Shown piece by piece: positions 166-8,637 of a DNA stretch of 8,685 nt. Source of the DNA: a candidate division WOR-3 bacterium. Lineage in GTDB: Bacteria > SDB-A. The notes beneath the pieces were generated by a model, which saw nothing but the letters and a program-made list of their open reading frames with translations, searched no databases and was not told the origin of the DNA. Location: positions 1 through 8,685 of the forward strand of contig JAFGON010000089.1 in the NCBI GenBank assembly GCA_016926475.1, written 5' to 3'. Made by a program: the position numbers and the translations under genes. Position 1 is the first letter of the stretch. Each line of letters begins with the position of its first letter.

Positions 166-171
166 TGATTG

Positions 172-1302
172 GTGGGTAAAATCACGGGATTTTTCGCCTC
201 AAAATGGGGTATAGTGTTGTCCGGTGGGATCATCGGGATAATCGCCGTGCTTCTGCAGAAATTCGGAAACCCACAGAACATGGGCGTCTGTGTCGCCTGC
301 TTTGAACGGGACATAGCAGGTGCTCTTGGCCTTCACAGAAATCCTGCGGTTCAGTACATAAGGCCCGAAATTATCGGATTCGTCCTCGGATCTATGATAT
401 CGGCCCTTATTTTCAGGGAATTCAAACCGAGAAGCGGTTCTTCTCCTCTGGTAAGGTTTTTTCTCGGAATGTTCGCCATGATAGGCGCTCTCGTTTTTCT
501 GGGATGTCCGTGGAGAGCATTTTTAAGGCTATCAGCAGGGGACGGAAACGCGGTTTCAGGAATCTTCGGATTGATTACGGGTGTTTCGACAGGCTCTTAT
601 TTTCTTAAAAAAGGTTTCTCTCTCGGTAGGAATATTAAAACATCCTGGGCGGGAGGTTTGATTTTTCCTCTTTTTATGATTTTACTCCTGGCTTTTTTAG
701 CCTTCAAAGTTTCCTTTGGGGAAGGCGCCCCGATATTTTTCAGCGAAACCGGTCCTGGCTCAAAATACGCTCCTTTAATCTTGTCTCTCGGCGCGGGTCT
801 TCTGATAGGTTTTCTTGCCCAGAGGTCGAGGTTCTGCACGATGGGAGCCGTAAGAGATGTGGTTCTCATAAGAGATTGGCATCTGATAAGCGGAGTCGGG
901 GCTCTTGTGGTCGCGGCTTTTATTTTGAATATAGTTTTCAAGCAGTTTCATCCCGGATTTGCACTTCAGCCTGTTTCACACTCTTTTCATATTTGGAATT
1001 TCCTCGGCATGGCGCTTTCAGGGCTTGCTTTCGCTCTAGCAGGCGGTTGTCCAGGCAGGCAGTTGTTTCTTTCGGGAGAAGGAGACCAGGACGCAGGCTT
1101 GTTCGTCATGGGAATGATAGTAGGAGCGGGATTTTCACACAACTTCCTTATGGCGGCGTCTCCAGACAAGCTTAACGAAGCCGGTAACCTCGTAATCGGC
1201 GGGCCCGGTATCTTCGGCAAGTACGCTGTCGTTGCGGGTTTGATTTTTTGCGTGATTTTGGGCCTGACAATGAAAAATATCAGAGAAAAAAAAGGAGCAT
1301 GA
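172..1302 (+). CDS. yedE: YedE-family putative selenium transporter (YeeE/YedE membrane protein)
   Basis: Integral inner-membrane protein of 376 aa with about ten hydrophobic segments, for example near residues 14-30, 66-82, 94-113, 161-182, 202-218, 238-257, 276-293, 308-322 and 350-367 (numbered from TTG 169). Family signatures are visible: a GNPQNMGVCVACFERDIAGA-like N-terminus with C41 and C44, the motif GCPWR (C113), RSRFC (C223) and GGCPGRQL (C294). Repeated Cys/GxP signatures in two halves are typical of YeeE/YedE transporters; those beside selD and yedF are considered selenium transporters, while related YeeE proteins move thiosulfate. The substrate here is inferred from the operon. 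It is the first gene, and its TGA stop is 1 nt from the next ATG. GTG 172 is preferred over TTG 169 because of Shine-Dalgarno spacing. No transport assay can be inferred from sequence. Confidence 0.9.
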   Translation: MGKITGFFASKWGIVLSGGIIGIIAVLLQKFGNPQNMGVCVACFERDIAGALGLHRNPAVQYIRPEIIGFVLGSMISALIFREFKPRSGSSPLVRFFLGMFAMIGALVFLGCPWRAFLRLSAGDGNAVSGIFGLITGVSTGSYFLKKGFSLGRNIKTSWAGGLIFPLFMILLLAFLAFKVSFGEGAPIFFSETGPGSKYAPLILSLGAGLLIGFLAQRSRFCTMGAVRDVVLIRDWHLISGVGALVVAAFILNIVFKQFHPGFALQPVSHSFHIWNFLGMALSGLAFALAGGCPGRQLFLSGEGDQDAGLFVMGMIVGAGFSHNFLMAASPDKLNEAGNLVIGGPGIFGKYAVVAGLIFCVILGLTMKNIREKKGA

Positions 1303-1303
1303 A

Positions 1304-1525
1304 ATGGATGAAATCACTGTCGACGCGAGAGGGCTTTCATGTCCGCAGCCTGTCCTCGATACATTAAAAGCAATTGACTGTTACAAAAGCGGTTTCATCG
1401 AAGTTCTTGTAGACACGGCTACATCGAGGGATAACGTCAGGAGAGCGGCTGAAAAAAAAGGTTTTAAAGTCGAGATTGCCGAAGAAACGGAAAGGGATAT
1501 ATTTAAACTAAAGCTGTCCAGATAA
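1304..1525 (+). CDS. TusA/SirA-like sulfur (selenium) carrier, YedF N-terminal-domain type
   Basis: Small protein of 73 aa covering a single TusA/SirA fold. The N-terminus VDARGLSCPQPVLDTLKA carries the family CPxP motif, with C13 as the residue expected to hold persulfide or perselenide. Selenium-associated YedF proteins usually consist of this domain followed by a DsrE-like domain. Here the gene stops after the first domain, so it is either a stand-alone carrier or a shortened YedF. It begins 1 nt after yedE behind AAAGGAG (1291-1297) and ends 1 nt before the desulfurase gene, so translational coupling is likely. Its position between a transporter and a PLP enzyme suggests it takes the chalcogen from the latter and passes it toward SelD. 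Family assignment is firm; selenium specificity rests on context. Confidence 0.9.
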   Translation: MDEITVDARGLSCPQPVLDTLKAIDCYKSGFIEVLVDTATSRDNVRRAAEKKGFKVEIAEETERDIFKLKLSR

Positions 1526-1526
1526 C

Positions 1527-2690
1527 ATGAGCATAATCTATCTGGATAATTCGGCAACTTCATGGCCGAAACCGCGTGAAGTCACCAAAGCGATGAAATC
1601 CTTCATGGAGTATCCTGGTTCAAATTCATCAAGAGGTTCTCACAGAATGTCTATCGAATCCGGGAGGATGGTTTATGAATGCAGAGAAAAAATCGCTTTG
1701 TTATTCGGTCAAGCTGATCCTACGAAAGTCATTTTCACGAGCAACGCTACAGAAGCTGTCAACACGGTTCTGTACGGCGTACTCGGTGAAAACCAACATA
1801 TAGTGACCACTTCCTTAGAACACAACGCAGTCATGAGACCCTTAAACCATCTCAGATCTTTAGGGAAATTGGAGTATTCGGTTGTCAGGGCATCCGAGAA
1901 GGGTGAAATAGACCCAAATGATTTCAAAAAATCAATATCGAAAAGAACGAAAATGTTTGTTGTCAACCACTGCTCTAACGTCATTGGTTCCCTCACGCCG
2001 GTTGAAGAAATAGGATATATAGCAAAGGAGAACGGGATTCTATTTCTTGTTGACGCCGCTCAGAGCGCCGGTGAATTCCAAATAGACTTAAAAAAAATGA
2101 ACATTGATTTCTTGGCTTTGACTGGGCACAAAATGCTGTATGGACCGATGGGCACGGGAGCTCTCGTCCTGGGAGACAATGTTGATGAAATAAGACCTCT
2201 TAAAAGAGGGGGGACGGGAAGCTCTTCTTCCGAGGAGACGCAACCCGATTTCCTTCCCGACAGACTTGAAAGCGGAACGTTGAACGCAGTAGGAATAGCG
2301 GGTCTTCTCGCCGGTATTGACTGGATTCTAAATATTGGACAGGAAAAGATATATTCTACAATAAAGAAGAAGTTTTTAAAATTCATGGAATTGCTTGAGG
2401 ATACACATACGATAGAAATTTTCAGGTCGTATTCCATTGAAAATCAGTCCGGGACGTTTTCTATAAGAATTAAAAACAGGGCGGTTAGCGACGTCGGCAG
2501 AATACTCGACGAAAAATACGGAATTATGTCGAGAGTCGGACTCCACTGCAGCCCATCATGCCACAAGACGATAGGCACGTATCCTCATGGCACCGTCAGG
2601 ATTTCACCAAGTTATTTCACAGAAGAGGAAGAGATCCATAGAACTGTGAAGGCTTTGGATGAGATCGCAAAAGGGATTGAAAATGCCTGA
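1527..2690 (+). CDS. PLP-dependent cysteine desulfurase / selenocysteine lyase (NifS/Csd class V aminotransferase)
   Basis: 387-aa fold-type I PLP enzyme expected to remove S (or Se) from cysteine (or selenocysteine), leaving alanine and an enzyme persulfide or perselenide. Visible features: N-terminal YLDNSATSWPKP; the PLP-stacking histidine in SLEHNAV (H99); VDAAQSAG with D176; the Schiff-base lysine K202 in LTGHKMLYGPMG; the GTGS region near 229-232; the catalytic cysteine C341 in GLHCSPSCHKTIGTYP; and R358 in GTVRISP. The HC-P-x-x-HKTIGT pattern matches the subfamily of desulfurases found next to yedF and selD in selenium operons. A second cysteine, C345, lies four residues after C341, where I expect a non-cysteine residue. 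No clear Shine-Dalgarno precedes ATG 1527, which fits coupling to the upstream gene. The TGA stop overlaps the next start. Cysteine versus selenocysteine preference cannot be read from sequence. Confidence 0.9.
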   Translation: MSIIYLDNSATSWPKPREVTKAMKSFMEYPGSNSSRGSHRMSIESGRMVYECREKIALLFGQADPTKVIFTSNATEAVNTVLYGVLGENQHIVTTSLEHNAVMRPLNHLRSLGKLEYSVVRASEKGEIDPNDFKKSISKRTKMFVVNHCSNVIGSLTPVEEIGYIAKENGILFLVDAAQSAGEFQIDLKKMNIDFLALTGHKMLYGPMGTGALVLGDNVDEIRPLKRGGTGSSSSEETQPDFLPDRLESGTLNAVGIAGLLAGIDWILNIGQEKIYSTIKKKFLKFMELLEDTHTIEIFRSYSIENQSGTFSIRIKNRAVSDVGRILDEKYGIMSRVGLHCSPSCHKTIGTYPHGTVRISPSYFTEEEEIHRTVKALDEIAKGIENA

Positions 2691-2913
2691 AAACAAGGAA
2701 TTCGGAGTAGTCCTGTTTTTCTCGGCCGCATCGGCTTTCAAGCTTGAAAAAAGGTTGAAGTCAAAAAACATATCTCATAAATTGATACCGGTTCCCAGGC
2801 ATCTTGATTCTGACTGCGGAACAAGCCTCCGCTTTTTTTGGCAGGATTACGATTCTGTAGTAGAAGAAATAAAGACGGGAGAAATAGAAGTAAAAATTGT
2901 TTCGAAACTTTAA
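2683..2913 (+). CDS. DUF3343 protein, putative Se/S carrier
   Basis: 76-aa protein whose core reads FFSAASAFKLEKRLK, then KLIPVPRHLDSDCGTSLRFF. This is the DUF3343 pattern: an alpha/beta start with F-x-S-x-x-A-x-x-x-E, then IPVPR and a conserved cysteine in a CG pair (C45). The family is small, commonly sits beside selD, yedF and desulfurase genes, and is proposed to carry selenium or sulfur; its biochemistry is not well established. ATG 2683 is preferred to the in-frame ATG 2659 because it has GGGA (2673-2676) six bases upstream, gives family length, and overlaps the previous gene by only 8 nt. The 2659 start would add eight unrelated residues. It ends 13 nt before selD. Confidence 0.85.
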   Translation: MPENKEFGVVLFFSAASAFKLEKRLKSKNISHKLIPVPRHLDSDCGTSLRFFWQDYDSVVEEIKTGEIEVKIVSKL

Positions 2914-2914
2914 T

Positions 2915-2922
2915 GAAAGGAG
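2915..2922 (+). promoter_or_regulatory. Shine-Dalgarno site that fixes the selD start
   Basis: GAAAGGAG lies 4 nt before ATG 2927. It sits in the 13-nt gap after the DUF3343 stop, and supports translation starting upstream of the in-frame TGA rather than at the GTG near 3050. Confidence 0.8.
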
Positions 2923-2926
2923 CCGA

Positions 2927-3964
2927 ATGGACGAAAGAAAAAAAATATTCCTGACAAGCTTTTCGGAAAAGGCGGGTTGAGCTGCGAAAATAGGTCCGTG
3001 TGACCTAAAAGAACTGCTGTCGGAGCTTAATCTTTCTCTGGGACCTGAAGTGCTGGTCGGCTTAGAGAGCTCTGATGACGCCGGCGTCATTAAACTGGAC
3101 GATGAAAGGGCTCTGGTTCAGACCGTGGATTTCATCACTCCCATAGTCGACGATCCATATTATTTCGGGAGAATAGCTGCGGCAAATTCCCTGAGCGATG
3201 TCTATGCGATGGGCGGAACACCTTTAACAGCGCTCAACATATGTCTTTTTCCGGTAACAAAACTCGAAAGTGAAAACCTGAAAAGAATATTGGCCGGAGC
3301 TCTGAGCGCCGTTGTTGAGGCGGGGGCATTTCTTGTTGGAGGGCACTCCATCGAAGACAAAGAGCTCAAATTCGGTCTTTCCGTAACAGGTATCGTTCAC
3401 CCAAAAGGAATTTGGCGCAACAACACTCCTCAAAATGGAAACGGGTTGGTCCTGACGAAGCCTTTAGGAACAGGAATAATCTCGACAGCTATAAAAGCTG
3501 GAATGGCTGATGAAAAAGACGAAGCGGAAATAATCGTCTCCATGTCTTCTCTTAACAAAACCGCTTCTGAAGTAGCAAAAAAATATTCTCCGAGCGCCTG
3601 CACGGACGTCACGGGATTTGGTTTGATCGGTCATCTTTCTGAAATGATCTCTGGATCGGGGAAAGGAGCTTTGTTGAAATCTTCAGAAATTCCTTTGTTT
3701 TCTTCCGTTCTCGAACACGCTTCTTCAGGAATGATACCCGGCGGTGCCGGAGCAAACAAAAAAACTTTCGAATGTCGAGTGGATTGCTCAACGAAAATTG
3801 ACGATCTTGTATATGATATTCTTTTCGATCCGCAGACTTCCGGTGGCCTTCTCCTGTCTGTCGCTGACCCAAACGGTTTTATAGAAGAATTAGCTTCAAA
3901 AGGAATAAAAGCATGGTCTATTGGGGAAATTAACGACAACTCCGAAAGAATAGAAATTAGATAA
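2927..3964 (+). CDS. selD: Selenide, water dikinase SelD, selenocysteine-containing (in-frame UGA at codon 18)
   Basis: SelD makes selenophosphate, the selenium donor for selenocysteine and selenouridine, from selenide, ATP and water in the cytoplasm. The frame is 345 aa with Sec plus TAA, close to the 347 aa of E. coli SelD. The N-terminus reads LTSFSEKAGUAAKIGPCDL, where U18 is TGA 2978-2980. This aligns with the E. coli active-site C17 and K20 (here U18 and K21, same spacing). Downstream are the metal/ATP aspartates D51 (SSDDAGV), D68 (QTVDFITPIVDDPYYFG) and D91 (SLSDVYAMGG), then GGHSIEDKELKFGLSVTG, CTDVTGFGLIGHL and FDPQTSGGLLL. A gene caller that treats TGA as a stop would begin at GTG 3050 and lose the catalytic loop. 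It is the last gene of the operon and ends 8 bp from the convergent PQQ-like gene. Sec insertion needs selA, selB and selC elsewhere in the genome. A nonsense mutation at exactly the catalytic codon is the unlikely alternative. Confidence 0.93.
2978..3007 (+). promoter_or_regulatory. Sec UGA codon and candidate bacterial SECIS hairpin in selD
   Basis: TGA 2978-2980 is followed ten bases later by TAGGTC (2991-2996), loop CGTGT (2997-3001), and GACCTA (3002-3007), a perfect 6-bp stem with a 5-nt loop. The loop starts 16 nt after the UGA and has G as its second base. Both points agree with described bacterial SECIS rules (apical loop about 16-37 nt from UGA, with a G in the first two loop positions). 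SelB would bind it. No wider supporting stem is obvious. Confidence 0.7.
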
Positions 3965-6230: not shown

Positions 6231-8576
6231 TTATCTGAGGAGTGCAATTTTCGTCGAGAGAAAATCTTCATCAGTTTTTAAAGTCAAAAAATACTGCCCG
6301 GAAGGAAAAGAGCGCATGTCAAAAATCAATTCCTGCAAACCAGGGCACAGGTTTCCTTGGAAAATGTTTTTGACTTGTCTTCCGCAGACGTCGAAAATTG
6401 AAACGCTGACCATGCAATTTGATTTCTGGAAGAAACTCACCTTGAAATTGCCGTTTAAAACACGGGCGCAAAGCAGAGATTCTGATCCGTTTAAGGGGTT
6501 TGTAGGTGTGAAGCTCTCTTCTATTCCTGTCGGGTAAAAAGGAGTTCCCTGAACCCATTTCACAGAGACCAGAGGAAAATTGTTTGAGTTGGGAGAGCAG
6601 TCAAAAATTGAATCTCCGTACCCCTCGTTCATTTTCCAGTAACCGGATAAACCCTGTTCTGTTCCGTTGAGATACAAAGACATGTTGTCGAGTATTTCCT
6701 GATGGGTCCTTGTTACATTCCAAAGACGGACTTCGTCAATTATTCCGTCAAATCTGAAATTGTTGCTCTGCAAAAGGCCAATCGAAAGGTTTGTGGAGGA
6801 GTTGTCGGCGATTTTTCCGGTAGGAGCCGGGTTGAAAGTCAAATTCTGCTCGACGCCGTTTATGTAGATTTTGACGGTACTGTCGGAAAAACTGTATGTC
6901 GCGGCAACGTGCTGCCAACCGTTGAGATTAATTGAGCTGTCCGGGGTCAAGGTTAAACTGTTCTGTCCTCCTTCGTGTTTCAGTTTAAAGCCAAGACAGT
7001 GGACTCCGTAGACGCCTTTGAAAAGTACAAGAGAGTAGTTGACTTTGTCGAGAATTGTCCCGTAACCCAGTGCAGAGTTTGACCCCCAGCCTGTTGGATA
7101 AATCCAGGCTTCGATGGTCAAGGAATCTGTAATATTGACACTTGGTGTGCCATCTCGTATCACAGAACTCAAAGTCGTTGAAAACTTCAACGCGCTCTCT
7201 CCGTCAAATGCGCTGATTAAGTCTTCGATGACGAAAGTGTCAGTCTCAAGATTGTTGGAAACGATAAGCGTGACTGTGTATGTCCCCGGAACAGTGTAGG
7301 AATGAGAAGGGTTTTCTTCATTTGAATCAATTGTGCCGTCGGAATCGAAATCCCAAGCCCAACTCAGCGCCTGAGGCTTGCAATACGACAAATCGGTGAA
7401 ATTGACTGTAAGAGGTGCGTGTCCGGTGTTAATATCCACTTCGAAATCCGCTATGCAGAAAGAATTTAAACTTTCCCACCACCTCAAATGATGAGAAGCG
7501 GCTTCAGCGCTACCTCCTATTAGATCTAAGTCTCCGTCTGAATCCAGATCTGCGATGTCCAGGTCCAAAAGGTCCCATGCGTCAGTGCTTATTATATACT
7601 GTGAGAAATTCTGATAACCGTCGTTTTCAAAAAACACTGTCAAAGAAGCCGACCATCCGGTTGCGAAAATATCATAATCACCGTCATCATCGATATCGCA
7701 GATGATAGGAGTTCTAGGGCCTCCAAAACTTGTCCTCAGGGGATGGCAGGTGAAACTTTCGTTGCCGTCGTTTTCAAACCACCCTACAACTGCACTTGTC
7801 CCGCACGATCCGGCGACGAAATCCATGTCGCCATCCCCGTCTACGTCTCCTGCCTGGATTCTGTTTGGTTTAACCCATCCGTTGAATATTAAATGTCCCG
7901 TGAAGCTTTCGTTGCCGTCGTTTTCAAACCACCATATTCCGGAAGCTTGAGCTGCAGCGAAGATGTCTGCGTCTCCGTCAGAATCTATATCAGCGGGAGA
8001 AGCTTCGCTCACTAGCGTCCAGTTATCTTTGATTATGTGCTCTGTGAAATTTCCCGAGCCGTCGTTTTCGAACCAACCCAGCACACCGGAAGAGCAAGAC
8101 GTAGCTAGTATGTCGATTATTCCGTCTGAGTTGATGTCAATAATCAGATCGGTAAAAGGGTCAATTACCTGTACTCCGTTTACGACATGCCATGTAGTGT
8201 CGATGATATTTTCCGTGAAATTGCAGCTTCCGTCGTTTGAAAACCAGCTTATCTTGTTTTGACCGGAAGACACAATGTCAAGTGTGCCGTTTTGATCCAG
8301 GTCGGCGACGTCGACAGCCCTGGGGTGAGAATAGTTTTCTGAAACTGAGTGAGATGTGAAATTTTGATTTCCGTCGTTTTCGAGCCACTTTATGTGATTG
8401 TTCAAATAGGAAGAATAGACAATATCGGTAAAACTATCTTCGTTGAGGTCAATTCCTTTTACGGATATTGCTCCACCCAGGTTGTTGAAAAGAATATGCT
8501 CTTCGAACAAGGCTTCAGCGCTTATCGAAAACACCGACAGAACAGTTATAATAAAGACCAAAACAATTGTTTTCAA
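6231..8576 (-). CDS. Secreted FG-GAP/VCBS beta-propeller, PKD and LamG protein with a C-terminal sorting-like tail
   Basis: 781 aa from TTG 8576. That start has AGGAGG 4 nt upstream, gives a clean signal peptide (MKTIVLVFIITVLSVFSISA), and is the only option downstream of the promoter: the in-frame ATG at 8636 lies in the promoter spacer and the ATG at 8615 is at the expected start of transcription. Domains: seven FG-GAP-type blades (about 30-373), each with a D-x-D/N-x-D-G-x-x-D calcium-loop motif (near residues 43, 92, 147, 196, 244, 294, 343, spaced about 49) and W-F-E-N-D-G, so a complete seven-bladed propeller; a PKD domain (about 375-457) with APLTVNFTD and WAWDFDSDG; a LamG/concanavalin-like domain (about 460-680) with LTIEAWIYPT, WQHVAATYS, YINGVEQ and IDEVRLWN; then a FlgD/type IX-like C-terminal domain (about 690-781) with VSIFDVCGRQVKNIF and SGQYFLTLKTD. 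Probably surface-bound or released, with carbohydrate or protein binding; substrate unknown. Confidence 0.88.
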   Translation of the reverse strand: MKTIVLVFIITVLSVFSISAEALFEEHILFNNLGGAISVKGIDLNEDSFTDIVYSSYLNNHIKWLENDGNQNFTSHSVSENYSHPRAVDVADLDQNGTLDIVSSGQNKISWFSNDGSCNFTENIIDTTWHVVNGVQVIDPFTDLIIDINSDGIIDILATSCSSGVLGWFENDGSGNFTEHIIKDNWTLVSEASPADIDSDGDADIFAAAQASGIWWFENDGNESFTGHLIFNGWVKPNRIQAGDVDGDGDMDFVAGSCGTSAVVGWFENDGNESFTCHPLRTSFGGPRTPIICDIDDDGDYDIFATGWSASLTVFFENDGYQNFSQYIISTDAWDLLDLDIADLDSDGDLDLIGGSAEAASHHLRWWESLNSFCIADFEVDINTGHAPLTVNFTDLSYCKPQALSWAWDFDSDGTIDSNEENPSHSYTVPGTYTVTLIVSNNLETDTFVIEDLISAFDGESALKFSTTLSSVIRDGTPSVNITDSLTIEAWIYPTGWGSNSALGYGTILDKVNYSLVLFKGVYGVHCLGFKLKHEGGQNSLTLTPDSSINLNGWQHVAATYSFSDSTVKIYINGVEQNLTFNPAPTGKIADNSSTNLSIGLLQSNNFRFDGIIDEVRLWNVTRTHQEILDNMSLYLNGTEQGLSGYWKMNEGYGDSIFDCSPNSNNFPLVSVKWVQGTPFYPTGIEESFTPTNPLNGSESLLCARVLNGNFKVSFFQKSNCMVSVSIFDVCGRQVKNIFQGNLCPGLQELIFDMRSFPSGQYFLTLKTDEDFLSTKIALLR
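7751..7933. repeat. Near-identical 33-bp direct repeats inside two propeller blades
   Basis: Bases 7751-7783 and 7901-7933 differ at one position (A7755 versus G7905) and are exactly 150 bp apart, one blade of 50 codons. They encode the WFENDGNESFT segments of blades 4 and 5. Other blades share the protein motif but much less of the DNA. Confidence 0.85.
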
Positions 8577-8580
8577 CTTT

Positions 8581-8586
8581 CCTCCT
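8581..8586 (-). promoter_or_regulatory. Shine-Dalgarno site of the FG-GAP protein gene (decides the TTG start)
   Basis: AGGAGG on the minus strand lies 4 nt before TTG 8576. It is the strongest ribosome binding site in the window and supports a non-ATG start. Confidence 0.85.
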
Positions 8587-8612
8587 TTGTTTACTCTTGT
8601 AGTTTTAATTAA

Positions 8613-8637
8613 CATATGTATATTATAGCTACACATG
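8613..8637. promoter_or_regulatory. Inverted repeat over the -10 box, candidate operator
   Basis: CATATGTA (8613-8620) and TACACATG (8630-8637) are inverted copies matching at 7 of 8 bases, with 9 nt between them; TTAA and TAA flank them outside. The centre contains most of the -10 box. A dimeric repressor here would block RNA polymerase. The TetR-family protein encoded downstream on the same strand is the obvious candidate, by position only. Confidence 0.45.

Follow-up and report, generated by a model that had tools for sequence, protein, structure and literature searches.

Selenophosphate synthetases (SelD) that themselves contain selenocysteine (Sec) have long been known and made up 19% of the prokaryotic SelDs in one survey. 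In addition, YedE, YedF and DUF3343 have been proposed as selenium genes on the basis of their gene context (Lin et al. 2015, PMC5322559), and fusions of NifS with SelD have already been published, reported from few genomes (PMC4561486, PMC2398784). The selD gene analyzed here lies in a window (the whole stretch of DNA under analysis) of 8,685 nucleotides. Its product shares with the Sec-containing SelDs (SPS2-type, TIGR00476) the Sec that stands where E. coli has Cys17, the lysine and aspartate residues, the AIRS domains and a bacterial SECIS element right after the UGA, and it differs from them only in its host lineage and in nothing that concerns the mechanism. Sec SelD is a well-established and common selenoprotein family, and the present protein is another member of it, from an uncultured lineage; the nearest named record, 77% identical, is labelled candidate division WOR-3. 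Somewhat less ordinary is only that the same genome encodes a second SelD, a Cys-type NifS-SelD fusion; such fusions, too, have been described before. What is gained is the correct start and the full length of SelD for this uncultured lineage, together with the very probable use of selenocysteine by its members; in all other respects the biology was already established.

The UGA codon in the active-site loop of SelD

The gene and its signals are as follows.

2927 to 3964, forward strand: selD, selenide, water dikinase of 345 amino acids with Sec predicted at residue 18 (TIGR00476, NF002098, read-through translation)
2978 to 2980, forward strand: in-frame TGA, the predicted Sec codon, aligned with E. 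coli Cys17 (same codon in 4/4 phylum genomes)
2916 to 2922, forward strand: Shine-Dalgarno sequence AAAGGAG of selD, four bases ahead of ATG 2927 (from the sequence)

A mechanical open reading frame call placed the start of selD at GTG 3050 and returned only 304 amino acids. An earlier note on this DNA had proposed that the frame instead runs upstream of this GTG, through TGA 2978-2980, to an ATG with a good Shine-Dalgarno sequence, and read-through translation bears this out: the frame extends from ATG 2927 to TAA 3964, with the TGA at codon 18 as its single internal stop. Truncation by standard gene calling, which had also been foreseen, is thus real, but the accompanying claim that the Sec trait of the genome would be hidden was overstated, since selA, selB, selC and a formate dehydrogenase still reveal it.

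The read-through protein scored 372.4 bits against the curated equivalog model TIGR00476 (cut-off, 125) and 327.3 bits against NF002098 (cut-off, 299), and both the N-terminal and the C-terminal AIRS domains were present (PF00586, 89 bits; PF02769, 59.5 bits). When aligned to E. coli SelD (PDB 3u0o), U18 falls on C17 and K21 on K20, and D51, D68 and D91 each fall on the aspartate of the same number, exactly as the earlier note had assigned them. Alignment with Sec- and Cys-type homologues, which the note had suggested, likewise placed the TGA on the catalytic cysteine.

We then compared four genomes of the phylum, namely, the source genome, two congeners (G001 and G002) and a more distant member of the family (G003). 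The SelDs of the other three are 78, 67 and 62% identical to that of the source genome, and each of the four carries one TGA at the same codon, which argues that the TGA is not there by chance. The surrounding segment KAGUAAKIGPCDL is invariant in 4/4 genomes, and on both flanks of the TGA residues are conserved while synonymous differences are also present. A true stop at this UGA, with a protein that starts at GTG 3050 and has no catalytic loop, would match the standard call, but it is very improbable: the region ahead of the GTG is conserved as protein in the four genomes, with synonymous and other changes, the TGA sits within the invariant segment, the loop carries the catalytic residue and the lysine of active SelDs, and the genome encodes tRNA-Sec, selA and selB. 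Even less credible is a sequencing or assembly error, or a pseudogene, at what was a cysteine codon. Although the assembly is fragmented (106 contigs), the same TGA occurs in four separate assemblies, which makes a misread base at 2978-2980 very unlikely, and the frame is otherwise intact across 345 codons, with a conserved hairpin.

Among related loci of other phyla, both Sec and Cys forms of SelD were found. A SelD tree with 35 rows showed strong clustering of the Sec/Cys label, which needed four changes.

The hairpin downstream of the UGA

Ten bases past the TGA starts a predicted hairpin, which folds at -9.5 kcal/mol (z, -2.5).

2991 to 3007, forward strand: predicted bacterial SECIS hairpin, with stem TAGGTC 2991-2996, loop CGTGT 2997-3001 and stem GACCTA 3002-3007 (fold, stem test, bSECIS rules)

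The published bSECIS model asks for a loop of 3 to 9 nt with a G in its first two positions, an upper stem of 4 to 16 bp, a distance of 16 to 37 nt from the UGA and a minimum free energy of at most -7.5 kcal/mol. The SelD hairpin satisfies all of these rules, with a 5-nt loop (CGUGU) with G second, a 6-bp stem, a spacing of 16 nt and an energy of -9.5 kcal/mol. An Rfam search of the window gave no match.

Taken over the entire 45-nt region, the fold energy separated Sec from Cys SelDs poorly (P = 0.06). As this measure is too blunt, a position-specific stem test was used next, and it alone separated the two types. In the source genome, the stem was stronger than in synonymous redraws (P = 0.006). 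Across 35 loci, the 20 Sec-type SelDs had a stem at the place of the hairpin that exceeded the stems of synonymous redraws in strength (Fisher P = 7e-17), whereas the 15 Cys-type SelDs had no such stem there (P = 0.87), and the two types differed with a P of 7e-7; these values are too small, because the loci include close relatives and the choice of test followed a look at the folds, but the split is still clear. Furthermore, synonymous conservation in selD was highest at codons 21 to 26 (P = 0.0007 for codons 19 to 27), and no other stretch of the gene scored as high as the hairpin codons. Codons 21 to 24 and 26 are identical in 4/4 genomes, compared to only 14/131 comparable codons gene-wide. 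In the congener G002, the stem has U-G in place of the outer U-A pair.

Selenocysteine machinery and a second selenoprotein

The source genome (2.15 Mb, 106 contigs) is 100% complete, and the search for selA, selB and tRNA-Sec (selC) that the earlier note had called for recovered all three. They lie on one contig (C90) and one strand in the order tRNA-Sec, selA, selB. The tRNA-Sec (59.3 bits) has the anticodon TCA (UCA in the RNA) and lies directly ahead of selA (492 bits), with selB (311 bits) adjacent to it. In two congeners, tRNA-Sec gave no match, and ARAGORN made no call at their contig starts. This absence looks like an artifact, as the contigs begin inside a tRNA-Sec-like sequence, with a TCA anticodon visible by eye, directly before selA. 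Within the first ~85 bases of these loci (L068 and L069), the contigs of both congeners start at the same base, an odd shared assembly break.

Further selenoproteins were sought family by family, nonexhaustively, in the source genome. This yielded the alpha subunit of formate dehydrogenase (FdhA; 910 bits; L058, G000:C73:14100-16112), with a TGA at the catalytic position (CARLUHSSTVAGLA), so that the search for other UGA-containing selenoproteins suggested in the note had a positive outcome. FlpD/MvhD was not found in this genome. A hairpin follows the TGA of FdhA in the source genome, the only copy folded, and its loop region is GGUCU, the loop sequence of E. coli fdhF. FdhA loci with a TGA at the catalytic Sec position are L058, L059, L060 and L062, with two copies in one congener. 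Neither selenouridine synthase (TIGR03167) nor YqeB (TIGR03309) was found in the source genome, and Sec is therefore the only SelD-dependent trait found there.

Genome-wide reassignment of UGA to another amino acid (code 4 or 25) has nothing in its favor besides one in-frame TGA and is refuted: TGA is the ordinary stop of the genes for YedE, the aminotransferase, a TetR regulator, SelA and others, and thus is not reassigned, and SelD and FdhA carry one TGA each, at a known Sec position.

The claim that SelD is a selenoprotein with an in-frame UGA at its active site is supported by the codon alignment, the hairpin and the Sec machinery. We put at about 97% the probability that the selD product is a selenophosphate synthetase and itself a selenoprotein; the insertion of Sec at residue 18 and the enzyme activity are predicted from the sequence. 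According to this reading, a ribosome at UGA 2978-2980 would receive Sec-tRNA-Sec from SelB, with the hairpin at 2991-3007 as the recruiting element, and Sec would be inserted at residue 18, in the flexible N-terminal loop. Sec18 would then replace the usual cysteine in the synthesis of selenophosphate from selenide and ATP. SelA would turn the selenophosphate into more Sec-tRNA-Sec, and SelD would hence feed its own synthesis as well as that of formate dehydrogenase.

Upstream genes with a probable role in selenium use and a second SelD

Four genes precede selD in the window.

169 to 1302, forward strand: putative selenium transporter of the YedE family (TIGR04112, 484 bits; cut-off, 200)
1304 to 1525, forward strand: TusA/SirA-like protein of 73 amino acids, equivalent to just the N-terminal part of YedF (PF01206, 60.7 bits)
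1527 to 2690, forward strand: class V aminotransferase, cysteine desulfurase or Sec lyase-like (TIGR01977, 447 bits; cut-off, 377)
2659 to 2913, forward strand: DUF3343, putative selenium/sulfur carrier (PF11823, 60.9 bits)

These genes match or resemble the families of the described YedE/YedF/Sec lyase/DUF3343 neighborhood. However, the second protein has the TusA-like domain only, without the DsrE-like second domain that defines YedF, and against the YedF model TIGR03527 it reached 53.7 bits over profile positions 1 to 62 of 194, below the cut-off of 110. Similarly, the lyase-like enzyme scored 333 bits against the model of the Sec lyase SclA, under its cut-off of 525. The true start of the DUF3343 gene is probably an ATG located 24 bases further in. 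The upstream genes probably import selenium, release it and carry it to SelD. Elsewhere in the window, positions 6231-8636 of the reverse strand encode a probably secreted FG-GAP/LamG/PKD protein, whose T9SS-type sorting tail scores just below the model cut-off.

The second SelD of the source genome (L054:3779-5998, contig C66) is a protein of 739 amino acids in which a Cys SelD (GLGCACK) carries a NifS-type cysteine desulfurase as an N-terminal fusion. Such a fusion is also present in G003 (L056:3182-5392), beside the Sec SelD, and was not found in the congeners G001 and G002. The architecture is the same as in the published fusions, but here the fusion coexists with a separate Sec SelD. The Sec SelD is consequently not the sole possible source of selenophosphate in this genome. 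One could imagine a division of labor, which we consider rather unlikely, in which the Cys fusion would start Sec synthesis and the Sec enzyme would take over afterwards. The fusion, fed selenium by its own desulfurase domain, would act when the Sec SelD is absent or selenium is scarce. With a Sec and a Cys SelD side by side, this genome gives a modest opportunity to test the start-up of a Sec pathway that itself depends on Sec. NifS-SelD(Cys) fusions also occur in Bacteroidota, Zixiibacteriota and Chloroflexota (L026, L030, L032, L038, L040 and L046) and are thus more widespread than the few cases in the two papers cited above.
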